A stretch of DNA of 64,000 nt from Devosia sp. FJ2-5-3 (GTDB lineage Bacteria; Pseudomonadota; Alphaproteobacteria; Rhizobiales; Devosiaceae), in contig NZ_CP104007.1 in NCBI RefSeq assembly GCF_029201545.1, forward strand, positions 124,001-188,000, in the 5' to 3' direction. Shown here one piece after another: positions 4,456 through 58,838 of this stretch (positions within the stretch are counted from its first letter, which is position 1; the number at the start of each line of letters is the position of its first letter). The position numbers and the translations under genes were made by a program. Below the pieces are notes generated by a model. That model saw only the letters and a list, made by a program, of their open reading frames with translations, was not told the origin of the DNA and did no database searches.

Positions 4456-7257
4456 CTAGCCATTGGCGGCTTTCTTGTCTTCGGTGGGGTTTTCGAACAC
4501 CGCCAGAAGCGCGTCGTGGATTTTTTTCTGGCGCTGTTTCACGTGAATCTTCTGGCCTGTCAGGTCGGTGACGTAGAAAACGTCGACTGCCTTTTCGCCA
4601 TAGGTGCCGATATGGGCGGAGCCGATGGTGAGGCTGAGATCGGAGATTTCGCGGGTCAGGGCGTAGAGGAGGCCAATGCGGTCGAGGCCTGAGACCTCGA
4701 TGACGGTGAATTTTTCCGAGATGGCGTTGGAGACCGAGACCTGCGCGGGAAGGGCGAAGGGTTTGAGGCGCTTGTTGTGACGGCTCTGCTTGCCGAGATC
4801 GATGAGGACCGTGCGCTTGCCCTGGAGGAGCTGCTTGACCGTGTCGATGATGCGGGTGGCGCGGACCTTTTCGTCTTCGTCGGAGGTGAAGCTGCGGCGG
4901 AGGCGGAAGGTGTCGATGGCGCGGCCGTCGCGGGTGGAAAAGATCTGCGCGCCGATAATGGACGCATCCTGCATGGTGCAGGCGCCGGCGATGAGCGAGA
5001 GCAGGCGCGGGTGGTCGGGCGTGTAGAAGCTGACTTCGGTGATGCCTTCGAAGGCTTTTACCCGGATTGAGCCGGCGAAGGGCTGGTCGGCCTCGTCGGC
5101 ATGGCGGATCATGCGGGCGTGCTCAAGCTGCAGCTCTGGCTCGGCACGCAGCCAGTAATGGTCGTAATGCCGGGCGAGATAGGTCTCCACCGCCTCTGCG
5201 GGCCATTTGTCGAGGGCGGCGGCGAGCGTCTGGCGGGCGGCGTGGACGCGGTCGAAATGGCTGACCTGGCTATGGCCGCCCGAAAGCAGGGGCTCGGTGG
5301 CGTAGTAAAGGGCGCGCAGGAGCGAGCCCTTCCAGCCGGTCCAGGTGCCGGGGCCGACGGCGCGGATATCGCAGGCGGTGAGGATCATCAGCAGCGCAAG
5401 GCGCTGCGGCGACTGGACGATATCGGCAAAGGCCTTTGCCGTTTCCGGATCCTGGATGTCGCGGGCCTGGGCGATCTCGCTCATCAGCAAATGATATTCG
5501 ATGAGCCAGGCGACGGTGTCGGTTTCGGCTGGCGTCAGGCCGAGGCGGGGACAGAATTTGCGGGCGATGCGGGCGCCGGCGATCGAATGATCCTCGGGGC
5601 GACCCTTGGCGATATCGTGGAGGAAGAGCGCGACATAGAGGAGGCGGGTATCGTTGAGCTGGGGCAGGAGCTCATGGGTCAGCGGCAGCTCGTTGCGAAG
5701 ACCCCCATTGGCGATATCGGCCATGCAGCCGACGGAGCGGATGAGATGCTCGTCCACCGTATAGTGGTGGTACATGTTGAACTGCATCAGGGCGACGATC
5801 TTGCCGAAATCGAGCACGAATTTGCCCAGCACGCCGCTCTCGTTCATCTGCCGCAGGATGCGCTCGACATAGAGCGGATTGGTCAGAATGGTGAGGAAGT
5901 GGGCATTGGCGCGCGGATCGTTGCGCAGGCGATTGTCGATCAGGTGCAGGGAATGGCGGATGTGCTTGATGGCATCGGGATGGAAGAGCAGCTCTTCGCG
6001 GCCGGCCACCATGAACATGCGGATGAGGTTGACCGGATCCTTCTCGAAGACATCGGCGGCGGCGATGTTGAGCCGGCCGGTGTCGATGACGAAATCGGTC
6101 TCGCCCTTGATCTTGGACTTGCCCGAGCGGAACGGTGCGAGCACACGGCCGACGAGATCAAGATCCTTGGCGTGGTGGAATTCGAGTGAGGCGCAGATAA
6201 TGCGGGTGAGATCGCCCACATCCTTGGCGACGAGGAAATAGCGCTTCATGAAGCGCTCCACCCCGAGCATGCCGAGGCGCTCGGCATAGCCCATGCGGCG
6301 GGCGAGATCGGGCTGGACGTCGAAGGTCAGCTTTTCCTCGGCGCGGGCGGTCACATAGTGGAGGTGGCAGCGCACGGCCCAGAGGAAATCCTCGGCGCGG
6401 GAGAAGAGGCGGTATTCGGCGGCGGTGAGGACACCCTTGCCGACCAGCTCCTGGCTGGTCTTGACCTGGTAAAAATACTTGCCGATCCAGAAGAGGGTAT
6501 TGAGGTCGCGCAGGCCGCCCTTGCCGTCCTTGATATTGGGCTCGACCACATAGCGGGTATTGCCCATGAGGCGGTGGCGTTCGTCGCGCTCGGCCATTTT
6601 CGCGGCGATGAATTCCGGGCCCGTCCTGGGCATGATCTCGGTTTCAAAGCGGGTGACGAGCTGGTCGAAAAGGGCCTTGTCGCCGGTGAGGAAGCGGGCT
6701 TCCAGCGTCGCGGTGCGCACGGTCATGTCGGCGCGGGCCATGCGGATACATTCATCGACCGAGCGGACCGCGTGGCCGACCTTCTGGCCGAGGTCCCAGA
6801 GCATGTAGAGAATATATTCGGTGACCTGCTCGCCCCAGGGGGTCTGCTTATAGGGCAGGATGAAGAGGAGATCGATGTCCGAACCGGGTGCCAGCGTGCC
6901 GCGGCCATAGCCGCCGACGGCCGAAAGCGCGATGGCTTCAGCGCCGGAGGGATTGTCGACCGGATAGACCCGCGTCGTGGCAAAGAGATAGACGGCGCGA
7001 ATGATCTCGTCCTGGGCGGCGGAGAGATTTTGCGCGCAGCGCGTGCCCTTGCCGGTGGCGAGCAGTTCGGCTTCGGCGCCGGCGCGCGCCTCGGCGAGGG
7101 TCTGGCGCATATGGGCCAGGACCAGGGCGCGGGCCGCAGGCGATTTGGCAGGCTGGTCGGCCACAAGGGCGTCGAGTTCGGCAAGAAGGGCCGAGGCGCT
7201 CCTGAGCGCGAATTGGGCTTTTCGCGGCTTGGCCTCAGCGTCGGCGAGCATCATCAC
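4456..7257 (-). CDS. glnD: [Protein-PII] uridylyltransferase / uridylyl-removing enzyme GlnD
   Basis: GlnD senses glutamine and adds or removes UMP on PII proteins, setting nitrogen assimilation. The 933-aa length fits. Domains in order: nucleotidyltransferase with GGYGRGTLAPGSDIDLLF near residues 115-132 (catalytic Asp 127 and 129), a central helical region, an HD domain with LFLHDIAKGRPEDHS near 540, and two C-terminal ACT domains (about 735-815 and 845-920). Start codons GTG ATG ATG run in tandem at 7257, 7254 and 7251; the gene overlaps the mutS end by about 20 bases, suggesting translational coupling. A parS-like site lies in the 3' end. Confidence 0.97.
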   Translation of the reverse strand: MMMLADAEAKPRKAQFALRSASALLAELDALVADQPAKSPAARALVLAHMRQTLAEARAGAEAELLATGKGTRCAQNLSAAQDEIIRAVYLFATTRVYPVDNPSGAEAIALSAVGGYGRGTLAPGSDIDLLFILPYKQTPWGEQVTEYILYMLWDLGQKVGHAVRSVDECIRMARADMTVRTATLEARFLTGDKALFDQLVTRFETEIMPRTGPEFIAAKMAERDERHRLMGNTRYVVEPNIKDGKGGLRDLNTLFWIGKYFYQVKTSQELVGKGVLTAAEYRLFSRAEDFLWAVRCHLHYVTARAEEKLTFDVQPDLARRMGYAERLGMLGVERFMKRYFLVAKDVGDLTRIICASLEFHHAKDLDLVGRVLAPFRSGKSKIKGETDFVIDTGRLNIAAADVFEKDPVNLIRMFMVAGREELLFHPDAIKHIRHSLHLIDNRLRNDPRANAHFLTILTNPLYVERILRQMNESGVLGKFVLDFGKIVALMQFNMYHHYTVDEHLIRSVGCMADIANGGLRNELPLTHELLPQLNDTRLLYVALFLHDIAKGRPEDHSIAGARIARKFCPRLGLTPAETDTVAWLIEYHLLMSEIAQARDIQDPETAKAFADIVQSPQRLALLMILTACDIRAVGPGTWTGWKGSLLRALYYATEPLLSGGHSQVSHFDRVHAARQTLAAALDKWPAEAVETYLARHYDHYWLRAEPELQLEHARMIRHADEADQPFAGSIRVKAFEGITEVSFYTPDHPRLLSLIAGACTMQDASIIGAQIFSTRDGRAIDTFRLRRSFTSDEDEKVRATRIIDTVKQLLQGKRTVLIDLGKQSRHNKRLKPFALPAQVSVSNAISEKFTVIEVSGLDRIGLLYALTREISDLSLTIGSAHIGTYGEKAVDVFYVTDLTGQKIHVKQRQKKIHDALLAVFENPTEDKKAANG
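4536..4549 (+). other. parS-like site 1 (inside glnD)
   Basis: The sequence is GTTTCACGTGAATC, one of nine copies in the window. It is preceded by T, so it matches TGTTTCACGTGAA of the ParB consensus TGTTTCACGTGAAACA. It lies in coding sequence for the second ACT domain of GlnD. Confidence 0.6.
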
Positions 7258-9949
7258 GGATTTTCTTCAACTCGTAGAGCGTATCGATGGCTTGCTTGGG
7301 GGTCATTTCGTCTGGGCGAATGGCGTCGAGCGCCTCGAGCACAGGGTCCTTGCTGGCGACAGCCGGGGCGGGCTGGTGGGCAAAGAGTGGCAGATCATCT
7401 AGCACGCTCGCCTTCTGGCTGGAAGAGGCGGTGCCCGCCGAACGCTGCTCGAGGACATCAAGAACCTGTTTGGCCCGCGCGATGACCGGCTCGGGCAGGC
7501 CGGCAAGCCGCGCCACCTGAATGCCATAGGAGCGGTCGGCAGCGCCGGGGCCAACTTCGTGGAGGAAGACGACCTCGCCCTCCCACTCGCGCACCTTCAT
7601 GGTGACATTGGCGACGCGGGTGAGGGTTTTGGCCAGCGAGGTCAATTCGTGGAAATGGGTGGCGAAAAGCGCCCGGCAGCCGGTGGTTTCATGCAGCGCC
7701 TCGACGGCGGCCCAGGCGATGGAGAGACCATCGAACGTGGCCGTGCCGCGGCCGATCTCGTCGAGCACGACAAGGCTGCGGCGGGTGGCGCGATTAAGGA
7801 TGGCAGCGGTTTCGACCATTTCGACCATGAAGGTCGAGCGCCCATGGGCGATGTCGTCGGAGGCGCCGACGCGGGAAAAGAGACGGTCCACCACCCCTAT
7901 ATGGGCGCTATCGGCGGGAACAAAAGAGCCCATCTGCGCGAGAATGGCGATGAGCGCGTTCTGGCGGAGGAAGGTGGATTTACCACCCATATTGGGACCG
8001 GTGACCAGCCAGAGCTTGCCGCCGCCGATCTCGTCGGCGCCGGAGAGATCGGCATCATTGGCGACGAAGGCGTGGCCTTCGGCCTTGACCATGGCTTCGA
8101 CCACAGGATGGCGGCCGCCAAGAATGGCGAAGGCGAGGCTGTCATCGACCTGGGGACGGCAATAGCCCCGCGTGGCGGCGATTTCGGCCAGGGATGCGGT
8201 GACGTCGAGCTCGGCAAGAGCATCGGCGAGACGCTGCAGCCGCACGGTCTCGATAAGGGCAGCCTCCCGCAGCTGAGCGAAAATAGTGTGCTCGATTTCG
8301 AGCGCGGCATCCTGGGCGCGGGCGATGCGGCCTTCGAGCTCGGCCAATTCGGTGGTGGTGAAGCGCATCGCATTGGCCAGCGTCTGGCGATGGATGAAAA
8401 TTTCGCGATGGGGGGCTTCGAGGAGTTTCTGGCCGTGATTGGCGGGCACTTCGACGAAGAAACCGAGGACGCCATTGTGCTTGATCTTGAGCGAGCGCAC
8501 ATCGGTCTCGTCCATCAGCCGGGCCTGGAGCGCAGCGACGACGGCGCGGGTTTCCGAGCCAAGGGCGCGTTCTTCGTCGAGCCTTGCGTCATAGGCGGGG
8601 CGGACAAAACCGCCATCGCGGGTGAGGAGGGGCAAGTGGTCGTCAAGGGCGAGGCCGAATTCGCTGGCGAGGGTTCGGGGGGCGGCGACAAGCGTTTGGG
8701 CGAGGCCGGAGAGCACGGCAGGCAGATCGGAAATCTGGGAGAGTTTTTCGCCCAGCGCCAGGGCCACGCCCACCGCCTTGCCGATCGCCGCGAGATCGCG
8801 CGGACCGCCGCGCTCGAGCGACAGGCGGGAAAGGGCGCGGGCGAGATCGGGCACGGATCTGAGTTCGGTGCGCAGCTTTGCGCGCAGGATCGTGTCATCG
8901 GCGAGGCGGGCGACCGCATCGAGCCGCGCATTGATTGCGGCGGCATCACGCAGGGGCGCAGCAAGGCGATTGGCGAGGAGGCGCGCGCCGGGGGCGGTGA
9001 CCGTCAGGTCGATGGCGTGGCGCAGCGAGTTTTTGGACTGGCCGCGCTGGGTGAGAAGGATTTCAAGGCTCTGGCGCGTCGCCGCATCGATGGCCATGAC
9101 GGCGTCGGCGGCATCGAGCAGGGGCGGCCGCAGGGGGGCGGTGCGGCCCTTCTGGCTCTGGTCGACATAGGCGATGAGCGCGCCAAGCGCCGCGCGGCCG
9201 GCGCGGGAGAGGGCGCTGGGATCGAAGACATCGGCAGCGAAGGCGCGCCGTATAGGGTCGAGAGCCAGTTCGCTATCGGCGGCTTCGGGCGGGGCAAGCG
9301 AGGCAATCTCCGCCCAGGAGGGGGCAAAGAGATGCCGCTCGACGAGGATTTCGCGGGTGCGCTCGGTGAGGAGCAATTCGGCCGGCGCGATGCGGGCGAG
9401 CTCGTCGGCGAGGCGATCGGCAGAGAGATCGGCGACAAAGGTTTCGCCGGTGGAAATATCGGCCCAGGCGAGGGCGAAATCGGTTTCGCCATGGCGCACC
9501 ATGGAGAGGGCGGCCAGATAATTGGCACTGCGCGCATCGAGGTGATCGTCCTCGGTGAGGGTGCCGGGGGTGACGAGCCGCACCACATCGCGGCGGACGA
9601 CGGATTTACTGCCGCGCTTCTTGGCTTCGGCGGGGTCTTCCATCTGCTCGCAGATGGCGACGCGATGGCCGAGGCGGATGAGCTTGTTGAGATAATCATT
9701 GGCGGCATGGATGGGCACGCCGCACATGGAAATATCTTCGCCAAGGTGCTTGCCGCGCTTGGTGAGGACGATGCCCAAAGCGGCGCTGGCGATCTCGGCG
9801 TCTTCAAAGAAGAGCTCGTAGAAATCGCCCATGCGGTAGAACAGGAGATATCCCGGGTTGACCGCCTTGATCTCGAAAAACTGGGCCATCATCGGCGTCA
9901 GCCCCGCAGGCGCGGGACTGGAGGCGGCCTCGATTGGGGTCTGATCCAT
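7235..9949 (-). CDS. mutS: DNA mismatch repair protein MutS
   Basis: MutS recognises base mismatches and small loops and starts mismatch repair with MutL. The 904-aa protein has the mismatch-reading Phe-X-Glu motif in GDFYELFFEDA (F43-Y44-E45), connector and lever domains, then the ATPase: Walker A TGPNMGGKSTFLRQNA near residue 650 and Walker B VVLDEIGRGTATFDG. It heads the leftward run into glnD. Upstream, a hairpin (arms TCGGGGCT/AGCCCCGA, 9963-9986) lies just before the start codon in the leader; no T run follows it. Confidence 0.97.
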   Translation of the reverse strand: MDQTPIEAASSPAPAGLTPMMAQFFEIKAVNPGYLLFYRMGDFYELFFEDAEIASAALGIVLTKRGKHLGEDISMCGVPIHAANDYLNKLIRLGHRVAICEQMEDPAEAKKRGSKSVVRRDVVRLVTPGTLTEDDHLDARSANYLAALSMVRHGETDFALAWADISTGETFVADLSADRLADELARIAPAELLLTERTREILVERHLFAPSWAEIASLAPPEAADSELALDPIRRAFAADVFDPSALSRAGRAALGALIAYVDQSQKGRTAPLRPPLLDAADAVMAIDAATRQSLEILLTQRGQSKNSLRHAIDLTVTAPGARLLANRLAAPLRDAAAINARLDAVARLADDTILRAKLRTELRSVPDLARALSRLSLERGGPRDLAAIGKAVGVALALGEKLSQISDLPAVLSGLAQTLVAAPRTLASEFGLALDDHLPLLTRDGGFVRPAYDARLDEERALGSETRAVVAALQARLMDETDVRSLKIKHNGVLGFFVEVPANHGQKLLEAPHREIFIHRQTLANAMRFTTTELAELEGRIARAQDAALEIEHTIFAQLREAALIETVRLQRLADALAELDVTASLAEIAATRGYCRPQVDDSLAFAILGGRHPVVEAMVKAEGHAFVANDADLSGADEIGGGKLWLVTGPNMGGKSTFLRQNALIAILAQMGSFVPADSAHIGVVDRLFSRVGASDDIAHGRSTFMVEMVETAAILNRATRRSLVVLDEIGRGTATFDGLSIAWAAVEALHETTGCRALFATHFHELTSLAKTLTRVANVTMKVREWEGEVVFLHEVGPGAADRSYGIQVARLAGLPEPVIARAKQVLDVLEQRSAGTASSSQKASVLDDLPLFAHQPAPAVASKDPVLEALDAIRPDEMTPKQAIDTLYELKKIRDDARRR

Positions 9950-10026
9950 GAGCTCGGGCGGTTCGGGGCTAAAAACGAAGCCCCGACCTTATGGCGAACG
10001 GGTTAAAAATCCAACCGGTCCCGTGG

Positions 10027-10042
10027 CGCCGCAAATGCGGCG
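10027..10042. terminator. Small hairpin between the DUF2189 gene and mutS
   Basis: CGCCGC and GCGGCG pair around AAAT, followed by TTTT on the plus strand. It begins a few bases beyond the stop codon of the leftward DUF2189 gene. The T run is on the opposite strand from that gene, so a role in its termination is uncertain. Confidence 0.35.
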
Positions 10043-10049
10043 TTTTGCA

Positions 10050-10874
10050 TCAAGCCGCCGGGGCTTGACGAATGTGGGAGGCCGGCTCGACCAGGAGGCG
10101 ATAGAGGTGCCAGGTGGCGTGGCCGAGAATAGGCAGGACCACCGCAAGGCCGACAAACAGCAGCAGCGAGCCGACAAAGACCGAGAGCCCGACGATGACG
10201 CCCCAGGCCAGGAGGGCAATCGGATTGCGCATGACGGCGCGCAGGGAGGTTTCCACCGCCACATAGGCCCCGACATCGCGATCGAGCAGGAGCGGGAAGG
10301 CAATCACCGAGGTACAGAGCACGACGAGGGCAAAGCCGGCGCCGAGGAGCGAGCCGCCGATGAGAAGGGTCATGCCGCCGGGTTCGTTGAAGATCTGGGC
10401 GAGAAGACCATTGAAGGTATTGGGCGGGGAGGAGCCGAAGAGGCTTTCATAGAGCGTCTGGGCGCTGGTGAGCCAGAGGGTGAAGAGCACGAGGAGCATG
10501 ATCCCGAGCGCAAAGATCGAACCGATGGCGGGCGAGCGGATCACGTTCATGGCCTCGCCCCAACTGGTATCGAGCCCCTGTTCGCGGCGGCGCGAGACTT
10601 CATAAAGGGGGAGGGCGGCGATGGGGCCGACAAGGGCGAAGCCGCCGACCAGGGGATAGAGCAGGGACCACGTCTGGTAGCCGTTCATCCAGGTGGCGAG
10701 GACGATGCCGACGATGGGGTAGATCAGAATGAGCAGCACGTAATGGCTGGGTTTTTCCCAGAAATCGGCGGCTCCCCGGCGCAGCGCGGTGAACAGGTCG
10801 GATATGGTGATGGTGCGGATGATGGGCATGTCCAGCTTGTCGCCGGCGCCGTTCATGATGTGCAAATGGGCCAT
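10050..10874 (-). CDS. DUF2189 family integral membrane protein
   Basis: A 274-aa protein with about six hydrophobic segments (for example HYVLLILIYPIVGIVLATWM near residue 45, then GGFALVGPIAALPL, FALGIMLLVLFTLWL, LIGGSLLGAGFALVVL, ALLAWGVIVGLSVFVG). The N-terminal TISDLFTALRRGAADFWEKP and the YEVSRRREQG segment are typical of DUF2189, a family of unknown function found widely in alphaproteobacteria. GGAGGGAGACGACT before the ATG is a good ribosome binding site. It lies 100 bases upstream of mutS on the same strand; a functional link is not known. Confidence 0.8.
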   Translation of the reverse strand: MAHLHIMNGAGDKLDMPIIRTITISDLFTALRRGAADFWEKPSHYVLLILIYPIVGIVLATWMNGYQTWSLLYPLVGGFALVGPIAALPLYEVSRRREQGLDTSWGEAMNVIRSPAIGSIFALGIMLLVLFTLWLTSAQTLYESLFGSSPPNTFNGLLAQIFNEPGGMTLLIGGSLLGAGFALVVLCTSVIAFPLLLDRDVGAYVAVETSLRAVMRNPIALLAWGVIVGLSVFVGSLLLFVGLAVVLPILGHATWHLYRLLVEPASHIRQAPAA

Positions 10875-11059
10875 AGTCGTCTCCCTCCAGAAGCGGAGGT
10901 CGCTGACCCTGGCAGGCGCTCCCCAAACATGCGCGTTACGCAGAACCTGCGACCGCTAACAGAGGATAGTTTACGCGGGGATTTGCGGGATGTCGCGGGG
11001 TTTCCGAGAGATGTGATCGGGGGGGGCGACCACTATGCCCTAGAGGACCACAGTCGCGC

Positions 11060-11889: not shown

Positions 11890-11902
11890 GGGCGCATTAA
11901 GG

Positions 11903-11930: not shown

Positions 11931-11961
11931 CTCATTTCATTCAGCGCTATTATAAACCCGA

Positions 11962-13718: not shown

Positions 13719-15356
13719 CTATTGCAGGCTGTCGACTTCGTAACGGTCTGACGGATCGTGCTGCGGGCGATAGACGAAATAGTCGAAATCGGCGGGGCTG
13801 GCGGTGCCGTTGAGGTCATGGGCGGCGACGCCGACGAAGGCGCCGGTAAAACTGCCATGGGCCTGGTGGCCGCCGCATTCGTCCGAGAGGATCGAGGCAT
13901 CGAGCACGGGGCCGATGGGCCGGAGTTCCTGGCCCTCGAGGGCGTAGAAGAATTGCAGCTTGCGGCCGCGGATGGTCAGGGCCAGCCGGACCTTGCCTTC
14001 ATTGGGGATTTGGACGGGATCGGCGGGGAAGCGCATATTGCCATCGGGCCAGCTCATTTCCGAGGACATGATCAGCAATTCGCGCTGGCCGTCCGAATGG
14101 GCCGTCACCGCGAGGTAGAAAAAGTTGTAGCGGCTGTAATAGGCCGTGAGCCCCGCCATGGTGCGCTCGTCGGTGGGCTTGAAGTCCACGACCGTCTCGG
14201 CGTCATAGGAGAAATGGGTCTGGCGACGGGCGACCAGCGCCTGCTCGAACCAAGAGCCGATGGATTCGCGGCCGAAGAGACGCAGCTTGCCTTCCTGGGT
14301 CGAGAAGATGCGTTCGGTTTCCGGGGTGCGCAGCCACTGGAAATCGAGGGGCAGGCCATTGTCAAAAGTATAGCGCTGCTCGGCCCAGTATTTGGCCTCG
14401 TCGCGCGTGCCGGGCACTTCGACGTGAAGGGAGGGCACAGGCCCGTGTTTCACGTGAATCCAGTCGTCGTCGCCCCAATAGGCCTCCTGGATCGAGGTCT
14501 CGCGACCGAGCACGCAGCGGCGTTCCTGGGTGGTCGGGCGACCGCCGAGATGGACGAGATAGGTTTTTCCCTCGGGCGTTTCGACGAGATCGCCATGGCC
14601 GGCGCGCTGAATGGCGGCGAGGGGGGCGTCCTTGGAGGTGAGGATATATTTATCCGGATGGGTCTCGTAGGGCCCATCGATATTGCGGGAGCGGGCAAAA
14701 GTGCAGGCATGGTCATAGGCCGTGCCGCCTTCGGCGGTCAGCAGATAGTACCAGGGCTTTCCGTCCTTGCCGTTGCGCTTGTAGAGGTGCGGACCTTCGA
14801 CGAGCTTGAGATCGGTGCCCTGATAGATGTTCTTGATCGGGCCGACGAGTTTACCGAGCTCGGCGTCGAACTGCTGCAGCGCAATGCCGGCGAAGAGCAG
14901 GGGACGGCGGCGATGGTCCCAGAGCATGTTGACGAACCACTTCTTGCCGTCGTCGTCATGGAAAAGGGAGGGGTCAAAGCCCGAGGAATTGGCGTAGATC
15001 GGATCGGACCAGGGGCCCTCAATGTTCTCGGCCCAGACGATGTAATTGTGGGCGTCCTTGAACGAGCCGTCCTTGCGCTTCACGTCGGTATAGACCAGCC
15101 AGAATTTTTCGCCGTCATGGGTGAGGCAGGGGGCCCAGACGCCGCAGCTGTCGGGATCGCCACGCATGTCGAGCTGGGTTTTCCGGTTCAGCGGACGGGT
15201 GACGAGTTCCCAGTTCGCGAGGTCTTTGGAGTGGTGGATCTGGACGCCCGGGAACCACTCGAAGGTGGAGGTGGCGATGTAATAATCGTCGCCGACGCGC
15301 AGGATGGACGGATCCGGATTGAAGCCGGGCAGGATGGGATTGGTCAGTTGCGGCAT
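13719..15356 (-). CDS. xynB: Glycoside hydrolase family 43 beta-xylosidase
   Basis: Hydrolyses xylo-oligosaccharides to xylose. The 545-aa protein has the five-bladed GH43 catalytic domain followed by a C-terminal beta-sandwich of the DUF1349/GH43_C2 type. The inverting triad matches the numbering of characterised family-43 xylosidases: Asp15 in NPDPSI (base), Asp near 128 in SGFDPSLFHDD, and Glu near 187 in VEGPHLYK (acid). No signal peptide is seen, so it should act on imported oligomers in the cytoplasm. It is the distal gene of the leftward xylB-xylA-xynB set; a C repeat separates it from xylA. A parS-like site lies inside. Confidence 0.92.
   Translation of the reverse strand: MPQLTNPILPGFNPDPSILRVGDDYYIATSTFEWFPGVQIHHSKDLANWELVTRPLNRKTQLDMRGDPDSCGVWAPCLTHDGEKFWLVYTDVKRKDGSFKDAHNYIVWAENIEGPWSDPIYANSSGFDPSLFHDDDGKKWFVNMLWDHRRRPLLFAGIALQQFDAELGKLVGPIKNIYQGTDLKLVEGPHLYKRNGKDGKPWYYLLTAEGGTAYDHACTFARSRNIDGPYETHPDKYILTSKDAPLAAIQRAGHGDLVETPEGKTYLVHLGGRPTTQERRCVLGRETSIQEAYWGDDDWIHVKHGPVPSLHVEVPGTRDEAKYWAEQRYTFDNGLPLDFQWLRTPETERIFSTQEGKLRLFGRESIGSWFEQALVARRQTHFSYDAETVVDFKPTDERTMAGLTAYYSRYNFFYLAVTAHSDGQRELLIMSSEMSWPDGNMRFPADPVQIPNEGKVRLALTIRGRKLQFFYALEGQELRPIGPVLDASILSDECGGHQAHGSFTGAFVGVAAHDLNGTASPADFDYFVYRPQHDPSDRYEVDSLQ
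14447..14460 (+). other. parS-like site 2 (inside the GH43 gene)
   Basis: GTTTCACGTGAATC, preceded by T, identical over 14 bases to sites 1, 5, 6 and 8. It lies in coding sequence. Confidence 0.6.
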
Positions 15357-23423: not shown

Positions 23424-23437
23424 GTTCCACGTGAATC
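23424..23437 (+). other. parS-like site 3 (before aceA)
   Basis: GTTCCACGTGAATC, one base different from the common form and the exact reverse complement of site 7. Intergenic, 60 bases before the aceA start. Confidence 0.55.
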
Positions 23438-24812: not shown

Positions 24813-24826
24813 GATTCACGTGAAAC
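24813..24826 (-). other. parS-like site 4 (after aceA)
   Basis: GATTCACGTGAAAC on the plus strand, the reverse complement of the common form, followed by A. Intergenic between aceA and the CSD-DUF1294 gene. Confidence 0.6.
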
Positions 24827-30591: not shown

Positions 30592-31462
30592 CGTAGACCT
30601 CCTTGCGTTTCAAACCGTAGCGCTGGGCGATTTCGTCCACCGCGCTGCGCATGGGCTGGTCGGCCATGGCTGCTTCGAGAGCGGCCATCCAATCCTCGGC
30701 GGCGGGGGCGGTGGGTTCATCGGCACCGGCAAGGATGATGACGGCCTCGCCCTTGGTGTCTTCCGCGGCGAACTTTGCCGCGAGTTCGGAGAGCGTGCCT
30801 CGGAAGGTGCGCTCGAACCGCTTGGTCAGTTCCAGCGAGACACTGGCCTGACGCTCGCCAAAGGCTTCAGCCATGGCGGCAAGGCTATCGGCGAGGCGGC
30901 GGGGAGACTCGTAAAACACCAGTGTTTCACGTGAATCCGCCAGTTTCGCCAAGGCGTTAGCACGGGCGCCAGCCTTGTTGGGGAGGAAGCCGTGGAAAGC
31001 GAACGCATCGGTGGGCAGACCCGCAACCACCAGCGCCGAGAGCAGCGCCGAGGCACCGGGGATGGGAAAGACCGGCAGGCCGGCTTCGGCGAGGGCGCGA
31101 ATCAGCGGGAAGCCCGGATCGGAGAGGAGGGGGGTTCCGGCGTCGGAAATGAGCGCGATGGCCTCGCCGGCGGCAATGCGGGAGACGATCTCCTCGGCCC
31201 GGAAGCGCTCGTTATGTTCATGTAAAGCCTGGCGTTTTCCCTTGATGCCGTAGTGGTCAAGCAGGCGCGCCGAGGTGCGAGTATCTTCGCAGAGCACGAG
31301 GCTCGCCCTGGCCAGGGTTTCCAGGGCGCGAATGGTGATGTCGCGCAGATTGCCGATCGGGGTGGAGACCACATAGAGCCCGGCTGCCAGAGGCGGGGCG
31401 GGGAAGTCGGTGCCGGCGATGTAATAACGAGGGTCGGTCACTGTGCTCCGGGGGTTCGGCAA
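30560..31462 (-). CDS. rsmI: 16S rRNA (cytidine(1402)-2'-O)-methyltransferase RsmI
   Basis: Methylates the 2'-hydroxyl of C1402 in 16S rRNA using SAM, with RsmH making m4Cm1402. The 300-aa protein has the class III (tetrapyrrole methylase-like) fold: GLYVVSTPIGNLRDITIRAL at the N-terminus, LCEDTRTSARLLDHYGI, ALISDAGTPLLSDPG and FPIPGASALLSAL. It is divergent from the lipoprotein gene with a 32-base gap. A parS-like site lies inside the gene. Confidence 0.96.
   Translation of the reverse strand: MPNPRSTVTDPRYYIAGTDFPAPPLAAGLYVVSTPIGNLRDITIRALETLARASLVLCEDTRTSARLLDHYGIKGKRQALHEHNERFRAEEIVSRIAAGEAIALISDAGTPLLSDPGFPLIRALAEAGLPVFPIPGASALLSALVVAGLPTDAFAFHGFLPNKAGARANALAKLADSRETLVFYESPRRLADSLAAMAEAFGERQASVSLELTKRFERTFRGTLSELAAKFAAEDTKGEAVIILAGADEPTAPAAEDWMAALEAAMADQPMRSAVDEIAQRYGLKRKEVYDAALALKARE
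30924..30937 (+). other. parS-like site 5 (inside rsmI)
   Basis: GTTTCACGTGAATC, preceded by T, identical over 14 bases to sites 1, 2, 6 and 8. In coding sequence. Confidence 0.6.
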
Positions 31463-42192: not shown

Positions 42193-42206
42193 GTTTCACG
42201 TGAATC
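42193..42206 (+). other. parS-like site 6 (before the dnaJ end)
   Basis: GTTTCACGTGAATC, intergenic between repeat families A and B. Confidence 0.6.
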
Positions 42207-43712: not shown

Positions 43713-43726
43713 GATTCACGTGGAAC
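43713..43726 (-). other. parS-like site 7 (dnaK-dnaJ gap)
   Basis: GATTCACGTGGAAC on the plus strand, the exact reverse complement of site 3. Intergenic. Confidence 0.55.
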
Positions 43727-51112: not shown

Positions 51113-51118
51113 ACCGCG

Positions 51119-51793: not shown

Positions 51794-51838
51794 TCTCTCG
51801 CCTTCGAATCTCTGCCAATAGTTCTTGGAGAGACCGCC

Positions 51839-52324
51839 ATGCCGATGCAAGCCACAACCACCACGCCGCTCTTTTCCGCCACGCTGCGACCCGACCGGTC
51901 GCTGCGGGCCACGGGCGGCTGGGTATCCCTTGTTATCGCCGCCATCGTATCCGTTCCCTTCCTCATTGCCGTTCCGGAATTTCTGGTTCCCGGGCTGGCC
52001 GCCTTCGCGCTTGCAGTCGGCGGACTGGTGGGGCTCAGCCTGCGGCAGGCGCGACGGGACCGGGTTTCCCAGCAGATCATCGTCTGGGCCGACCAGATCG
52101 AAATTACCCTGCGCGGACCCGGGCATGAACGCGTCCTGCGCCGGTTCTCGCCGCGTGACGTGCGGCTGGTTCTGACGCGCGACGACAATGAGCGGACAAC
52201 CGCCATGCATCTGCGCCATGGCGCCGAAGAGGTCGAGCTTGGTGCCTTCCTCGCGCCTGACGACAAGTCGAGCTTTGCGCGGGAATTCGGCCGCGCCCTC
52301 CGCCGCGCCCGCCAAAGCGCCTGA
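51839..52324 (+). CDS. DUF2244 family membrane protein
   Basis: A 161-aa protein with two hydrophobic segments (GWVSLVIAAIVSVPFLIAV and LVPGLAAFALAVGGLVGLSL, residues about 27-67) followed by a soluble beta-rich domain (IIVWADQIEITLRGPGHERV, VRLVLTRDDNERTTAMHL). This is the DUF2244 layout, a family of unknown function in alphaproteobacteria. The ATG at 51839 follows TTGGAGAGACC. It shares the 45-base divergent gap with nth; the two are adjacent in many related genomes. Confidence 0.85.
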   Translation: MPMQATTTTPLFSATLRPDRSLRATGGWVSLVIAAIVSVPFLIAVPEFLVPGLAAFALAVGGLVGLSLRQARRDRVSQQIIVWADQIEITLRGPGHERVLRRFSPRDVRLVLTRDDNERTTAMHLRHGAEEVELGAFLAPDDKSSFAREFGRALRRARQSA

Positions 52325-52383
52325 TGGTCAAAACCGGGTCGCCTCCCCGGCACTACGGTCCTAGAACAGCGACAGATTGATCG

Positions 52384-53268
52384 ATGAAGGGCCAGGCCAT
52401 GAACCAGCTCGCCAAGCTCGTCCCGCAGGACGACTACGACATTATCCGCGCCGCCATCCGCTATCTCAGCGAGAACGGCCCTGACGCTACCGATCTGGCG
52501 GCCTTCTCCCGCGCCCTGGGCATGAGTGAACGACAGCTGACCGAGCTTTTCCGACGCTGGTGCGGCCTCAGCCCGAAAAGTTTTGCGCAGGCAGTGGCGC
52601 TCGACCACGCTAAATCATTGCTCCGGAACAAGGCCAGCGTCCTCGATACCACCTATGAGGTGGGCCTCAGCTCGACGTCCCGGCTGCACGATCTGTTCGT
52701 CACCTATGAAGCCATGCCTCCCGGCTTGTTCCGGGCCGGCGGGGCAGGGCTCGACATGGTCTGGGGGGCGGCACCATCGCCTTTCGGCACGGCGGTGGTG
52801 ACGGCGACCGAATATGGCATTTCCGGCCTCGGCTTTGCCGATGCGGACACCAGCATCGAAGCCGCATTTGCCGACCTCGCCAATCGCTGGCCCAATGCCC
52901 GCTTCGTCCGCGACGATGCGCGGATTGCCCCGCTTGTGGGACAGGTGTTCGAACCGGGGCGCTGGGCGGATCAACACCCCGTGCGCGTCGTGCTGATCGG
53001 CACCGATTTCGAGGTGCAGGTGTGGGACCGCTTGCTGAAGATCCCCATGGGACAGGCGACCACCTATGCCGACGTCGCAAGATCCATCGGTCGGCCGACC
53101 GCGTCTCGGGCGGTGGGGGCAGCCGTGGGGAAGAACCCGATCAGCTTTGTCGTGCCCTGCCACAGGGTCGTGGGTACATCGGGCGCGTTGACGGGGTACC
53201 ATTGGGGCGTCCCGCGAAAACGGGCCATCCTCGGATGGGAAGCCGGGGTGGTCTCGGCGGCGCACTAG
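52384..53268 (+). CDS. AraC-type HTH / methylated-DNA-protein-cysteine methyltransferase (Ada-like)
   Basis: A 294-aa protein: an AraC-type helix-turn-helix (residues 15-105, MSERQLTELFRRWCGLSPKS), then the alkyltransferase with IPMGQATTYADVARSIGRPTASRAVG and the acceptor Cys in FVVPCHRVVG. It transfers alkyl groups from O6-alkylguanine to itself. The N-terminal zinc domain of E. coli Ada, which senses methyl phosphotriesters, is absent, so activation as in Ada is not expected. Start is ATG 52384 or ATG 52399. Its stop overlaps the RIME-like element. Confidence 0.92.
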   Translation: MKGQAMNQLAKLVPQDDYDIIRAAIRYLSENGPDATDLAAFSRALGMSERQLTELFRRWCGLSPKSFAQAVALDHAKSLLRNKASVLDTTYEVGLSSTSRLHDLFVTYEAMPPGLFRAGGAGLDMVWGAAPSPFGTAVVTATEYGISGLGFADADTSIEAAFADLANRWPNARFVRDDARIAPLVGQVFEPGRWADQHPVRVVLIGTDFEVQVWDRLLKIPMGQATTYADVARSIGRPTASRAVGAAVGKNPISFVVPCHRVVGTSGALTGYHWGVPRKRAILGWEAGVVSAAH

Positions 53269-53370
53269 AGCGTTTCCAGGAAAAGTGGACACCACTTTTC
53301 CGGTTCGGAAATGCGACAAACAAGGACTTAGAGTGATTTCATCGCGTCAACGACGCGGTGAAATGCTCTA
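53266..53370. repeat. RIME-like rhizobial intergenic mosaic element
   Basis: The 105-base stretch opens TAGAGCGTTTCCAGG, has a GTGGACACCACTTTTCC palindrome, a TTCGGAAATGCGACAAACAA segment and ends AAATGCTCTA, so its ends are inverted copies (TAGAGC...GCTCTA). This resembles RIME/ABC elements of Rhizobium and Brucella. Its left end uses the TAG stop codon of the Ada-like gene. The rest of the 368-base gap holds families B and C and a parS-like site. Confidence 0.7.
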
Positions 53371-53400
53371 GCGCGCCATTCGCTTCATCCAAGGCCTCCT

Positions 53401-53469
53401 GCCATTCGAGCGTAGCTCTCATGGCCTTCTCCCCTCAAATGGCGCCACTGGCGCCTTTTGCCCTGCGGG
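53401..53469 (+). repeat. Family B tandem-hairpin element, copy 4
   Basis: Hairpin 1 arms GCCAT/ATGGC and GAGC/GCTC, loop GTA. Hairpin 2 (53437-53459) pairs AAATGGCGCCA with TGGCGCCTTTT, 10 of 11 pairs. Hairpin 3 is a small CCC-TGC-GGG (53461-53469). Confidence 0.75.
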
Positions 53470-53479
53470 ACGGGTCGAA

Positions 53480-53493
53480 GTTTCACGTGAATC
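53480..53493 (+). other. parS-like site 8 (before the gpmA end)
   Basis: GTTTCACGTGAATC, intergenic between family B and family C repeats. Confidence 0.6.
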
Positions 53494-53506
53494 CTTGGGG
53501 AAGAGA

Positions 53507-53619
53507 CCCCCACCTAGCCTCCCCCTGGAGAAGGGGGAGGGACTGATCGAGCGTGTTGCGATGTTGGAGAGCCACCGGCCCATTCCTCCCCTTTTTTCAG
53601 GGGGAGGTTAGGTGGGGGT
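53507..53619. repeat. Family C inverted repeat pair
   Basis: CCCCCACCTAGCCTCCCCC with GGGGGAGGGA, then about 50 bases, then CCTCCCC, TTTTTTCA and GGGGGAGGTTAGGTGGGGG. It is one of the best examples of the full two-hairpin layout and directly precedes the gpmA stop codon. Confidence 0.85.
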
Positions 53620-53636
53620 GCCTGGGCCAAGAAACC

Positions 53637-54251
53637 TTACAGCAGGACCCGCTCGACCAGCTTGCCGTCCGGGCCGATCTTGTAGACCGTGGGTTCGCCG
53701 GTGCCGATTTCGCGGGCGAGGATTTCGTCGGGGGTCAGGCCCTCGATGGCCATGACGAGGGCGCGCAGCGAATTGCCGTGGGCCGCAATCAGGACCGTCT
53801 TGCCAGCCTTGAGCTGGGGCAGGATTTCGGCTTCGTAATAGGGCAGGGTGCGCTCTGCCGTGTCCTTGAGGCTTTCACCGCCCGGAGGCGGCACGTCGAA
53901 GGAACGGCGCCAGATATGGACTTGCTCCTCACCCCATTTGGCGCGGGCATCGTCCTTGTTGAGGCCCGAGAGGTCACCATAATCGCGTTCATTGAGCGCG
54001 ATATTGCGGGTGATGGTGACATTGAGAATGCCCATCTCCTCGAGGATGAGGTCGAGCGTGTGCTGGGCGCGACGCAGGGCGGAGGTATAGAACAGGTCCG
54101 GCGCATAACCGCCCGCCTTCAAAGCCTGGCCGGTGGCACGGGCTTCCCCGATCCCCTTCTCGGTGAGGTTGGGATTGCGCCAGCCGGTAAAAAGATTTTC
54201 GAGGTTCCATTCGCTCTGGCCGTGGCGGACCAGGATCAGCGTGCCGGTCAT
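53637..54251 (-). CDS. gpmA: 2,3-bisphosphoglycerate-dependent phosphoglycerate mutase
   Basis: Interconverts 3- and 2-phosphoglycerate in glycolysis. The 204-aa short form typical of alphaproteobacteria has [20 protein letters not shown] (phosphohistidine in RHG), [34 protein letters not shown] and [19 protein letters not shown] (second His). It lies 15 bases downstream of dapB and is probably cotranscribed. Confidence 0.95.
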
Positions 54252-54266
54252 GTTGTTTTCTGTCCC

Positions 54267-55079
54267 TTAGTCGTTGAGGCCGAGCACATCGGCCATGGAA
54301 TAGAGGCCGGCCTTCTGGCCGGCAGCCCAGAGCGCGGCGCGAATGGCGCCATTGGCGTAGATGGTGCGGTCCTGGGCGCGGTGGGTGAGCTCGATGCGCT
54401 CCGACGCGCCGGCAAGGATCACCATGTGATCGCCGATGACATTGCCGCCGCGCAGCGTGGCAAAGCCGATCGTGCCGGCTTCGCGCGCGCCGGTATGGCC
54501 GTCGCGGACACGGACCGAATGGTCCTTGAGGGAAATGTCCCGCCCCTTGGCAGCCGCTTCGCCCAGCATGAGGGCCGTGCCCGAGGGGGCGTCGACCTTG
54601 AGATTGTGATGCATTTCGAGGATTTCGATATCGTAGTCAGGCAAGGCGGCGGCGGCCTTTTCGACCAGCGCCGTCAAGGCGACCATGCCGGGCGAGAAGT
54701 TGCCGGACTTTACGATGCGAGCGCCAGCGGCGGCAGCAGCGGCGATGGCCACATCGTCGGCCTCGGTGCAACCGGTGGTGCCGATGATATGAACGAGGCC
54801 GCGCTCGGCGGCCTTTTGCGCCAACGCCACGCTGGCGGCGGGGGCGGTAAAATCGATGACCACGTCTGCAGTGTCGAGCAGGACCGAAATGTCGTCGCTC
54901 ACGGCCACACCAAGTTCTTCCAGCCCGGCCAGCAGGCCCGCATCCTTGCCGACGGCGGCGGTGCCCGGGCGATCGACAGCGCCGACCAGAACCATGCCGG
55001 GATGGGCGGCAATTGCTCTTAAATTCGCAGCGCCCATGCGCCCGCCTGCGCCCGCAATAATGGTCCGCAATCCAGCCAT
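54267..55079 (-). CDS. dapB: 4-hydroxy-tetrahydrodipicolinate reductase
   Basis: NAD(P)H-dependent step of the diaminopimelate-lysine pathway, feeding lysine and peptidoglycan. The 270-aa protein has the nucleotide-binding start [50 protein letters not shown], and the substrate motif [16 protein letters not shown] with the catalytic His and Lys. It heads the dapB-gpmA pair and is divergent from a VOC gene. Confidence 0.96.
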
Positions 55080-55205
55080 GTCGAAATTCTCCTTGCCGTC
55101 GCCCCGCCTATAGCAGTGCGGCGCGCCGACGCCAACTGCGCGTCACAATCGACACAATTGGAAACAAACACTAGGCTGGGCACGAAGAAGTTGAACGGAA
55201 CCGGA

Positions 55206-55556
55206 ATGACCATCACGAATGCGCTGGCCAGTATCGCCGTAGAAAGCCTCAGCGAGTCCCTTGTCTGGTATGAATATCTCTTCGGCCGGCCGGCGGACGC
55301 CCGTCCCATGGCCGATGTGGCCGAATGGAAATTGCCTGGCGGCAGCTGGGTTCATGTCGCCACCGATGCAGACCGTGCCGGCGCCAGCGTCGTCATGCTG
55401 ATCGTCGACGATATTGCGGACGAGTTGGGCCGGCTCGAAATGTTCGGGATCACGCCCGTGGCCAAGGCCATTGGCGATTTTTTCAAGACGGCGAAACTGC
55501 GCGACCCCGACGGCAATCTCATCGTGCTGAGCCAGCCGCAGCCGGGAACCTATTAG
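55206..55556 (+). CDS. VOC superfamily protein (glyoxalase-like)
   Basis: A 116-aa protein with a single glyoxalase-like fold: ALASIAVESLSESLVWYEYL at the start, AEWKLPGGSWVHVATDADRA in the middle and LRDPDGNLIVLSQP at the end. Substrate unknown. The ATG at 55206 is preceded by ACGGAACCGGA, a modest ribosome binding site; the frame extends 30 codons upstream without a better one. Confidence 0.83.
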   Translation: MTITNALASIAVESLSESLVWYEYLFGRPADARPMADVAEWKLPGGSWVHVATDADRAGASVVMLIVDDIADELGRLEMFGITPVAKAIGDFFKTAKLRDPDGNLIVLSQPQPGTY

Positions 55557-55650
55557 GGCCTGCCCCGTCCACGAGAGGCAGGCTTATGATCGTCCGTTCC
55601 CTTGCGGCGCGGGAACGCGGGCAGGAGCCGGTGGGCTTTGCTCCCGCGGC

Positions 55651-56601
55651 CTAGACCCGCCGCAAACTGACATTGGCGATGAAGTGGCCCTTGCCCTTTT
55701 TCAGGATCAGATCGGCGCGCCCGCGCGTGGGCAGGATGTTTTCGAGCAGGTTGGGCAGATTGATGCTGCGCCAGACCTGGCGACCGAATTCTTCCGCCTC
55801 CGCCTCGCTCATTTCCGTGAGCTTGCGGAAGAAGGAATTGGGGTCGCGGAACGCGGTCTCGCGCAGGTGGAAGAAGCGCTCGATGAACCAGTCTTCGAGA
55901 TCTGCCGTCTCGGCGTCGATATAGATCGAGAAATCGATGAAGTCCGAGGCGAACAGGATCGGATTGCCGGTCCTCGGCAATTCGCCAGGCTGGAGGATAT
56001 TGAGCCCCTCGACGATGAGAATATCGGGCCGGTCGATGACGACTTCCTCGCCCTCGACCACGTCATAGACGAGGTGGGAATAGACGGGGACCGCCACCTT
56101 TTCCTTGCCCGACTTTATGTCGGCGAGGAAATTGACGAAGCGGGCGCGATCATAGCTTTCGGGAAAACCCTTGCGCTCCATGAGGCCGCGTCGCCCCAAT
56201 TCGGCATTGGGGTAGAGAAAGCCATCCGTGGTGACGAGATCGACGCGCGGGCTCGAGGGCCAACGCGACAGAAGCGCCTGCAGGATACGCGCCGTGGTCG
56301 ATTTTCCGACGGCGACCGAACCGGCGACGCCGATGATGAACGGCACTTTATGGTCGGGCTTCTTGAGGAAGCGCGAGGCCACATTGTGCAGGTCCTGGAT
56401 GGCCTCGACATAGTGCGAGAGCAAGCGCGTCAGCGGCAGGTAAACCTCTTCGGCTTCCTCCAGCGAGATCGGGTCGTTCAGACCGTGGAGCTTGTCGATA
56501 TCGCTCTGGGTCAGCGTCATGGGCTGGCCGTTGCGCAGCTGGCTCCATTCGGCAATGGTGAAGTGATGATAGGGATCGAGCGAGGGGGAACGACGGGCCA
56601 T
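55651..56601 (-). CDS. coaA: Pantothenate kinase (type I)
   Basis: Phosphorylates pantothenate, the first and controlling step of coenzyme A synthesis. The 316-aa protein has the P-loop IIGVAGSVAVGKSTTARIL near residues 93-112, DGFLYPNAELGRRGLMERKGFPESYD, and SDFIDFSIYIDAETADLEDWFIERF (positions about 205-230). Its ATG overlaps the hisE stop (TGATG), so it is the last gene of the his operon, an arrangement usual in Rhizobiales. Confidence 0.96.
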   Translation of the reverse strand: MARRSPSLDPYHHFTIAEWSQLRNGQPMTLTQSDIDKLHGLNDPISLEEAEEVYLPLTRLLSHYVEAIQDLHNVASRFLKKPDHKVPFIIGVAGSVAVGKSTTARILQALLSRWPSSPRVDLVTTDGFLYPNAELGRRGLMERKGFPESYDRARFVNFLADIKSGKEKVAVPVYSHLVYDVVEGEEVVIDRPDILIVEGLNILQPGELPRTGNPILFASDFIDFSIYIDAETADLEDWFIERFFHLRETAFRDPNSFFRKLTEMSEAEAEEFGRQVWRSINLPNLLENILPTRGRADLILKKGKGHFIANVSLRRV

Positions 56602-56915
56602 CAGCTTTGCTCCCGCGAGGCTTTTTCGGCGAGGCCGGATTGGGCCGTGCGCGTGTCGAGTTCGTGCATCACCTCTGCGAGCGGCACGCCCGAGGCACGC
56701 AACACGACCAGCAGGTGGTAAAGCACATCCGCGCTCTCCTTGACCAGTTCGGCCCGATCCCCGGTGACGGCGGCGATCACCGCCTCAATGGCTTCCTCGC
56801 CCAGCTTCTGGCTGGCCTTGTTGATGCCCCGCGAGATGAGCTTGGCCGTATAGCTTTCGTCAGGCGAAGCAGCAGCGCGCAGCGCGATGCGCTGTTCCAG
56901 TTCTTCGAGCGTCAT
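56601..56915 (-). CDS. hisE: Phosphoribosyl-ATP diphosphatase
   Basis: Second step of histidine synthesis: removes pyrophosphate from PR-ATP. The 104-aa MazG-like helical protein has [43 protein letters not shown] with the metal-binding Glu residues, and [18 protein letters not shown]. It overlaps coaA by one base and lies 86 bases downstream of hisF. Confidence 0.95.
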
Positions 56916-57001
56916 TTCGGAGAGGTCTCCTCACCCACCGTCTGAGGTGGCTTAAATCACGGAAGGCAGCGGGCGTCACCCGCAACCTTTGTCTGGCCCC
57001 C

Positions 57002-57790
57002 TCAGGCGCGCGGCGCCGGCGCGTCCATGCGCATGTCGATGCCATGCTCGATCATGTAGCGCTTGGCCTCGGGAATGGTGAAGGTGCCGAAGTGGAAGAT
57101 CGAGGCGGCGAGCACGGCGCTGGCATGGCCTTCGGTGACGCCCTCGACCAGATGCTGTAGCGTACCGACGCCGCCCGAGGCGATGACGGGGACTTCGACA
57201 TTGTCGGCAATGGCGCGGGTGAGTTTGAGGTCGAACCCGGATTTGGTGCCGTCGCGATCCATGGAGGTGACGAGCAATTCGCCGGCGCCGCGCTCGACCA
57301 TGCGGTGGGCGAACTCAACGGCATCAATGCCGGTGGGTTTGCGGCCGCCATGGGTGAAGATCTCCCAGCCCGCACCGCCATCGCTGCGCTGCTTGGCATC
57401 GACCGAAACGACGATGCACTGATTGCCGAACTTGTCGGCGGCGCGGGCGATGAAATCGGGGTCGTTCACCGCTGCCGAATTGATCGCCACCTTGTCGGCG
57501 CCGGCCAGCAGTAGTTTTCGGATGTCCTCGATGCTGCGGACGCCGCCACCGACGGTCACCGGCATGAAACAATGTTCGGCGGTGCGCGCCACCACGTCGA
57601 AAATCGTGTCGCGACCCTCGTGGCTTGCGGCGATGTCGAGGAACGTTAGCTCGTCGGCGCCGGCCGCGTCATAGGCCATGGCCGCTTCCACCGGATCGCC
57701 GGCATCGACGAGATCAACGAACTGCACGCCTTTCACCACGCGGCCGCCGGCGACATCGAGGCAGGGGATGATGCGGGTTTTCAGTGTCAT
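57002..57790 (-). CDS. hisF: Imidazole glycerol phosphate synthase cyclase subunit
   Basis: With HisH makes imidazole glycerol phosphate and AICAR. The 262-aa TIM barrel has the catalytic Asp in [18 protein letters not shown], the second Asp in [29 protein letters not shown] and [15 protein letters not shown]. Its ATG overlaps the stop of a small membrane-protein gene as ATGA, so hisF translation is coupled to that ORF and through it to hisA. Confidence 0.97.
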
Positions 57791-58113
57791 GACGAAACCT
57801 CTGTGGACCGCCGCCAGGCGACATAGTGAATGAGCAATATGACCAGCCAGACCAACACGGCGCCGCCCGCCAGAGGCAGGGTGAGAAACAGCAGCCAGGG
57901 GAGGACAAAGGCAGCGTAGAGCGCTTCGCTCCAGTCGCTCCCCATGACCATGCAGACGCTCGCACCGCCCTCATTGAGGCTGCATCCATGCGCGGTGGCA
58001 ATGGCGTCCGCCGCGATGATGGCAATGATCGGCGCGATGGCAAACAGGATGATCACCACCATGATGATGACATAGTAGCGCAGAGGGAAAGCCCGACGCC
58101 GCTCAGCCATCAT
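57787..58113 (-). CDS. Small membrane protein inserted in the his operon
   Basis: A 108-aa protein with two strong membrane segments ([20 protein letters not shown] near residues 13-33, and [20 protein letters not shown] followed by [11 protein letters not shown] near 70-99). Between them lies a loop with two Cys ([20 protein letters not shown]) that would face the periplasm if both ends are inside. It overlaps hisA upstream and hisF downstream, each by ATGA. This double coupling makes translation very likely. I know of no role in histidine synthesis and recognise no family. Confidence 0.8.
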
Positions 58114-58838
58114 GCAGCCCTGATCCGCGCCAGTGCTTCACGTGAATCAATGCGCCCGTCGTAAAGAGCACGACCGGAAATAGCGCCTTCGAGCACGGCA
58201 TATTCAGGCTGGGTCATGCGCTCGATATCGGCCATGGAAGCGAGGCCCCCCGAGGCGATCACCGGGATGGTGGTGGCGCGGGCCAGCTCGAGCGTCGAGT
58301 CCCAGTTGATGCCGGCCAGCACGCCATCCCGATCGATATCGGTGTAGATGATGGCCGCAACCCCAGCGCCTTCAAACCGCTTGGCGAGCTCGATGACGCT
58401 GAGTTCGGAGGTTTCCGCCCAGCCTTCAACCGCCACCATGCCCTTGCGCGCATCCATGCCGACGGCGACCTGGCCGGGCCATTTCCGGGCGGCTTCCTTG
58501 ACCAGCGCCGGGTCGCGCACGGCAACGGTACCGAGAATGACGCGGGCCAGACCCTTGTCGAGCCAGGCTTCGATATGGCCGAGATTGCGAATGCCGCCGC
58601 CCAATTGGACGGGGAATTTTACGCTTTTCAGAATGGCTTCCACCGCCGCGCCATTGACGCTTTCGCCGGCAAAGGCACCGTTGAGGTCGACGACGTGGAG
58701 ATATTCAAACCCCTGGTCCTCGAACGATTTTGCCTGCGCGGCAGGGTCGTCATTGAACACGGTGGCCTGGTTCATGTCGCCCAGTTTCAGGCGCACGCAC
58801 TGGCCGTCCTTGAGGTCGATGGCGGGGAAAAGGATCAT
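58110..58838 (-). CDS. hisA: Phosphoribosylformimino-5-aminoimidazole carboxamide ribotide isomerase
   Basis: Fourth step of histidine synthesis, an Amadori isomerisation. The 242-aa TIM barrel has [18 protein letters not shown] with the catalytic Asp, [20 protein letters not shown], and [19 protein letters not shown] with the second catalytic Asp. The ATG at 58838 has GGAG ahead. The stop overlaps the small membrane ORF; a parS-like site lies in the last codons. Confidence 0.96.
58135..58148 (+). other. parS-like site 9 (inside hisA)
   Basis: GCTTCACGTGAATC, one base from the common form at position 2. In coding sequence near the hisA stop. Confidence 0.55.

Follow-up and report, generated by a model that had tools for sequence, protein, structure and literature searches.

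We analyzed a stretch of 64,000 nucleotides from the genome of Devosia sp. FJ2-5-3 (the window, i.e. positions 124,001-188,000 of a single 4,192,992-base contig), in which a first-pass annotation had recognized nine dispersed sites resembling parS. In the ParA-ParB-parS segregation system, parS is the site at which ParB dimers load, by clamp loading dependent on cytidine triphosphate followed by sliding. All nine sites are found exactly where the annotation had placed them; seven contain the exact 10-mer TTCACGTGAA, and the two at 23424 and 43713 are one base off it and form a reverse-complementary pair. When at most one mismatch is allowed, the 10-mer has 9 matches in the window versus 0.94 expected, and none of 100 shuffled sequences reached 9. 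Regarded as 14-mers, the sites comprise six copies of GTTTCACGTGAATC, two of GTTCCACGTGAATC and one of GCTTCACGTGAATC, listed here in window coordinates together with the GANTC pentanucleotide present in each of them:

4536..4549, forward strand: parS GTTTCACGTGAATC; GANTC at 4545-4549; within glnD
14447..14460, forward strand: parS GTTTCACGTGAATC; GANTC at 14456-14460; within a GH43 glycosidase gene
23424..23437, forward strand: parS GTTCCACGTGAATC; GANTC at 23433-23437; other half altered; ahead of the family-matched part of aceA
24813..24826, reverse strand: parS GTTTCACGTGAATC; GANTC at 24813-24817; directly after the aceA stop
30924..30937, forward strand: parS GTTTCACGTGAATC; GANTC at 30933-30937; within rsmI
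42193..42206, forward strand: parS GTTTCACGTGAATC; GANTC at 42202-42206; beyond the dnaJ stop
43713..43726, reverse strand: parS GTTCCACGTGAATC; GANTC at 43713-43717; in the dnaK/dnaJ gap; other half altered
53480..53493, forward strand: parS GTTTCACGTGAATC; GANTC at 53489-53493; in the gap between two open frames
58135..58148, forward strand: parS GCTTCACGTGAATC; GANTC at 58144-58148; other half altered; within hisA

Family models support the four coding hosts named by the annotation (glnD, the GH43 glycosidase gene, rsmI and hisA), and the other five sites lie outside the family-matched parts of those overlapping open reading frames that were tested, which were a part of the total. Because four of the sites are located within unrelated genes, a role as a promoter motif is unlikely.

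Genome-wide, the 10-mer occurs 14 times, and all copies lie within 128,538-210,054, so that an even spread around the chromosome, the result that the first-pass annotation had set against its own reading, is ruled out. A scan of the whole genome with the 14-mer (up to two mismatches) yielded 16 sites in this 82-kb zone and two weak ones elsewhere, and the reversed-pattern control gave 4 forward matches and 1 reverse. The zone makes up 2% of the 4.19-Mb chromosome and spans parA (200,938-201,738) and parB (201,749-202,621); the probability that 16 random sites would fall into so short an arc is about 3e-25. The 16 sites comprise 11 copies of GTTTCACGTGAATC, two of GTTCCACGTGAATC, one of GCTTCACGTGAATC and two perfect palindromes GTTTCACGTGAAAC, one located in gidB ahead of parA and the other starting 5 bases after the parB stop. 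Relative to this near-palindrome (14-16 bp), two sites are thus perfect, 11 have one change and three have two.

The core of the sites is CACGTG, and the parS sequence of the repABC type, GTTNNCNGCNGNNAAC, is not matched (consensus from PMC9040568). The core, the near-palindromic form and the clustering around parAB are shared with chromosomal ParABS parS (consensus TGTTTCACGTGAAACA, PMC7383237). The best match of the host ParB in the PDB is Caulobacter ParB (6t1f), with the segment GKSRSHVANT identical, and the recognition helix as well as the arginine and glycine that set specificity are common to both; the nearest named relatives by ParB are Devosia, at most 95% identical. The array is almost certainly the chromosomal parS of a Devosia, and the proposal of a spread-out parS zone stands, with 16 of 16 sites within 82 kb around parAB, a fit to the ParB consensus and a Devosia host. 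It is hardly credible that these are E-box-like sites of an unrelated regulator, which would share with parS only the common CACGTG core and would leave aside the clustering at parAB, the ParB consensus and the two perfect palindromes flanking parA-parB.

The GANTC half-site and its distribution

The asymmetry of the sites results from a change of GTGAAAC to GTGAATC, which creates GAATC, i.e. one GANTC. GANTC is the target of the cell-cycle DNA methylase CcrM. In 14 of the 16 sites one half reads GATTCAC in place of the GTTTCAC of ordinary chromosomal parS, so that exactly one GANTC is present in these 14 and two in none; the three sites with a further change have it in the non-GANTC half, and the GANTC is kept in all 14. 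The genome otherwise avoids this pentanucleotide about four-fold (686 copies seen in a sample of 800 kb, where base composition predicts 2660), the depletion being milder by an order-3 Markov estimate (ratio 0.57 for the fetched loci of the host's family). Such depletion has been described before, with GANTCs commoner between genes (PMC3973325). The genome encodes CcrM: a 377-residue RAMA-domain protein has as its best PDB match CcrM 6pbd (E 1.2e-161, near full-length) and scores 624 bits against the NCBIfam equivalog model of Caulobacter CcrM, below the 830-bit cut-off.

To put these sites into context, we surveyed all forms in one set of 397 Rhizobiales genomes from 141 genera. The one-GANTC 14-mer GTTTCACGTGAATC is widespread in the order, being present in 201 genomes and 67 genera (1 match for the reversed-pattern control), and the plain palindrome is present in 356 genomes and 132 genera. 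Thus the asymmetry of the "unusual asymmetric parS" of the first-pass annotation is confirmed and is not peculiar to this genome. Each of 11 other sampled congeners has 7-10 exact one-GANTC copies and 1-2 palindromes. A palindrome with two GANTCs was found in a single genome, as one site located on a different contig from the seven one-GANTC sites of that genome. Halves with C or G at the position of the distinguishing A (the second of GATTCAC, hereafter A2, as opposed to T2 in GTTTCAC) occur in 47 genomes, at 53 sites (13 matches for the control).

Differences in the recognition helix of ParB offer no explanation for the marked sites. Two specificity residues defined in PMC7383237 and matched by alignment to 6t1f, the arginine of the recognition helix and the glycine of AGHAR, are invariant in the 62 ParBs extracted from the loci. 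Most rows, marked and plain, have the helix KSRSHVAN; families f22 (marked) and f28 (plain) show departures. Within the part compared (ParB residues 138-204), GANTC-using and plain families are not distinguished by any residue of this helix, and for this part of the protein altered ParB specificity is rejected as the cause of the marked parS.

Conservation and pairing of the half-sites

Sites were sorted by their distance from parB in 54 Devosia loci, with gene boundaries taken from the host genome only. About 6.2 kb upstream of parB (the hemJ-rho gap in the host genome), 43 of 44 loci retain the GANTC half and 37 of 44 have the consensus in the other half; at 7-11 kb past parB the corresponding counts are 27 of 27 and 20 of 27 (Fisher p 0.0005 for the two positions pooled, uncorrected for kinship). 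Those rows of the mnmE-gidA gap that do not overlap the stop codon of mnmE read GATTCAC in 54 of 54 cases after L154, a row with such an overlap, was dropped (the rows were sorted by flank pattern, and one or two may be misfiled). At none of these three positions does the GANTC side ever equal the consensus half. The second gidB position, which is coding, reads GATTCAC in 45 of 48 loci, with GACTCAC, GATACAC and ATTTCAC once each, and all 52 sites at the first gidB position are plain. The one-GANTC form is thus held at several positions across Devosia. The first mnmE-gidA site was dropped as evidence of conservation, as its A belongs to the TGA stop of mnmE. That parS (L022:18295) overlaps the stop codon (TGATTCACG), and in L154, where the mnmE stop is TAA, the half turns into AATTCAC.

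The pairing of half-sites was analyzed in 88 loci of 71 genomes, using sites with a CACGTG core and up to three mismatches (those with an altered core are missed). Because the loci were taken around listed matches, the relative frequency of one-GANTC and plain sites in them cannot be read as unbiased. The 57 genomes of the order contain 250 sites, of which 139 have one GANTC, 111 none and 0 two, and free pairing of the halves would yield 19 two-GANTC sites, uncorrected for kinship. A Devosia-group set, which overlaps the former (55 of 61 named loci used, six with less than 60% identity dropped), contains 333 sites, with 224, 109 and 0 in the same classes and 38 two-GANTC sites expected, likewise uncorrected. 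The double form is not barred by a weak partner as such, since in the order set GANTC halves pair with the altered halves GCTTCAC (8), GTTCCAC (6), ATTTCAC (2) and GTTGCAC (1). Conversely, the partners of GCTTCAC are a GANTC half in 8 of 11 cases, GTTTCAC in 2 and GGTTCAC in 1; in the Devosia set (n=8) they are a GANTC half in 4, GTTTCAC in 1 and other altered halves in 3. In A2 halves of the order set extra changes are found only at the N of GANTC (GACTC, 7 of 139), and among the 347 T2 halves 18 are altered at position 1 or 4 and one at position 3 (GTCTC). The 14 genomes outside the order contribute 36 sites, 30 without GANTC and 6 with one, most of which had prompted the choice of the locus. 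It appears likely from these data that each marked parS is under selection to contain one GANTC and no more.

One alternative is an ordinary parS with a tolerated degenerate half: ParB of this order would accept A2 in one of the two halves, and the coincidence with GANTC would be incidental. It agrees with the occurrence of A2 halves, at a low rate, beyond the class in loci where GANTC is not depleted, and with the lysine of the host ParB at the position called 184, a residue termed "permissive" in PMC7383237 (assigned by our own alignment). However, most plain-parS families of the order share this lysine, A2 greatly outnumbers C or G at its position in the half-site, A2 halves are never paired with each other in the listed sites though they do pair with other altered halves, and there is no return to the consensus half at the three Devosia positions. 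We consider this alternative unlikely.

The GANTC half might instead serve as a mark of polarity, orienting parS for the sliding of ParB or the loading of SMC independently of methylation. Each site has one altered half, the orientation of the GANTC half at a given position is conserved across Devosia, and at distances above 5 kb upstream of parB it faces parB in 49 of 55 sites, many of them orthologous; we regard this orientation bias as a lead only. Near parB, however, the orientation differs between families, and the N-variants of GANTC suggest that it is the pentanucleotide that matters, which makes polarity as the explanation distinctly unlikely. At 3.4-3.8 kb upstream of parB, the loci of families f44 and f23 (L074-L078, L095-L098) contain tandem parS arrays, in which one plain parS lies beside one to three sites with a GANTC, at spacings of about 37-71 bases.

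The GANTC could also have another role, either in a promoter switch of GcrA/CcrM or because shielding by ParB keeps the site undermethylated. In a grouping chosen after the data had been seen, GANTCs lie within 20 bases of the plain sites of GANTC-using lineages at a rate of 0.42 per site (n=59), compared with 0.15 for marked sites (137), 0.15 for plain sites in plain-only lineages (52), 0.07 for plain sites from outside the order (30) and a background of 0.058-0.068, which is locus-wide and not intergenic. Proteins can indeed shield GANTCs from CcrM, e.g. MucR (PMC5172544). On the other hand, the general excess of GANTCs between genes (PMC3973325) explains a part of the difference, and four of the nine window sites lie in unrelated genes, a poor fit to promoters, so that a role of this kind seems quite improbable.

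A proposed role of methylation in the loading of ParB

The best explanation we can offer is that selection retains GANTC because CcrM methylates this half of parS, and that the methylation tunes ParB loading; as a whole, we give it an even chance of being right. In Caulobacter the action of CcrM comes late in the cell cycle, and early-replicated sites therefore remain hemimethylated through much of S phase (PMC3973325) and otherwise fully methylated. Both methyl-adenines would fall inside one ParB half-site, and ParB nucleation at the marked sites may be tuned differently before and after replication. The unmarked half, together with the two unmarked palindromes beside parAB, would provide a methylation-independent core, and with a single GANTC instead of two, one half would stay readable throughout.

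That CcrM methylation acts on ParB loading at all is a tentative proposition. The same holds for a methylation-gated centromere in much of the order (Devosia and relatives), a model we put forward with considerable doubt. In it, the outlying parS would have one CcrM site in one of their ParB half-sites, and hemimethylation upon replication would alter ParB loading, distinguish freshly replicated sister centromeres from unreplicated ones and couple replication to segregation.

Several observations weigh against the methylation explanation. Loss of CcrM in Caulobacter left the segregation of replicating chromosomes undisturbed (PMC3973325), which speaks against a general essential role, and parS1 of A. 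tumefaciens has been described with the B. subtilis parS consensus (PMC9239152). Within the order, the parS of families f35, f28, f17, f34 and f43 are all or almost all plain, although CcrM is reported in most Alphaproteobacteria (PMC3973325). A phylum sample of 190 genomes includes 24 that belong to other alphaproteobacterial orders, in which there are 47 plain sites, 2 G-variants and no exact one-GANTC 14-mer, and 142 from outside the class, with 7 one-GANTC sites and 3 G-variants; these counts do not support a model in which CcrM is the only cause. Four fetched loci of families f71 and f76 have no GANTC depletion by the Markov estimate, hence ParB tolerates a GANTC half without a sign of CcrM. 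Within Devosia, the position after parB is mixed (among 47 left halves GTTTCAC 27, GTTCCAC 8, GATCCAC 6, GATTCAC 2 and others 4), and A2 halves without GANTC do occur (GATCCAC 7, GATACAC 1, AATTCAC 1, CATGCAC 1). Finally, the N-variants represent an estimated 5-7 independent events, judging from the flanks, and of the four found in Devosia three coincide with the stop codon of mnmE, where the A is fixed by the stop itself; the test based on them appears strong as raw counts and is weaker once orthologous sites and this stop codon are allowed for.

Adenine methylation is known to mark newly replicated origin DNA in E. coli and Vibrio, where Dam/GATC and SeqA control the origin. Dam/SeqA controls initiation, whereas in Devosia the mark would sit in the centromere. 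A parallel among alphaproteobacterial centromeres is the parS of repABC (PMC9040568, PMC11514494), which likewise lies near CcrM sites and for which one GANTC has been suggested to matter for partition (PMC11514494); it differs in sequence, in having the GANTC near and not inside the site, and in belonging to secondary replicons. In Caulobacter, the five strongest parS lie within 5 kb (PMC5815017), as opposed to 82 kb here, and the GTGAAA half is reported as the conserved one (PMC5815017). GANTCs of the Caulobacter parS locus have been assayed as a control, with methylation unchanged (PMC5172544), and the available passages of PMC5815017 and PMC5172544 are silent on a GANTC inside parS or selected there. 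We found no report of GANTC inside a chromosomal parS in a search of open-access titles, starts of abstracts and passages, with subscription papers and supplements outside its reach.

How replication is coupled to the segregation of the centromere is an open question, and there is little direct evidence on the part played by CcrM. If parS bears the CcrM mark, the link is directly testable with HinfI, which cuts unmethylated GANTC (PMC5172544), with oligonucleotides and with chromatin immunoprecipitation followed by sequencing. A natural comparison is offered by related families that have or lack the mark and whose ParBs have the key recognition residues in common.

The origin region

The first-pass annotation took the window to be origin-proximal and named clustering around parAB and the minimum of GC skew as support. 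The clustering around parAB was borne out; the sign changes of GC skew and of strand-biased oligomers fall at about 45-60 kb on the contig, at a distance of some 140 kb from parAB. The skew signal is weak and noisy, and contrary to parAB as the origin; the contig starts at dnaA. The region of the sign change and the maf-hemE gap are both candidates for the origin of replication (oriC), the gap being a likely one by gene order, as it is the usual neighbourhood of oriC in Alphaproteobacteria. This gap (193,626-194,063; L022:13626-14063) is inside the parS zone, 5.6 kb past the end of the window, is AT-richer and has 4 GANTCs in a 500-base window. Another group of 4 GANTCs in 500 bases is found at about 229,000-229,700, in a genome that avoids GANTC. 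At 3247093-3247359, a 146-residue open frame matches only the C-terminal part of the DnaA model. Scans of 1-120 kb for transfer RNAs and Rfam families detected two transfer RNAs and nothing else.

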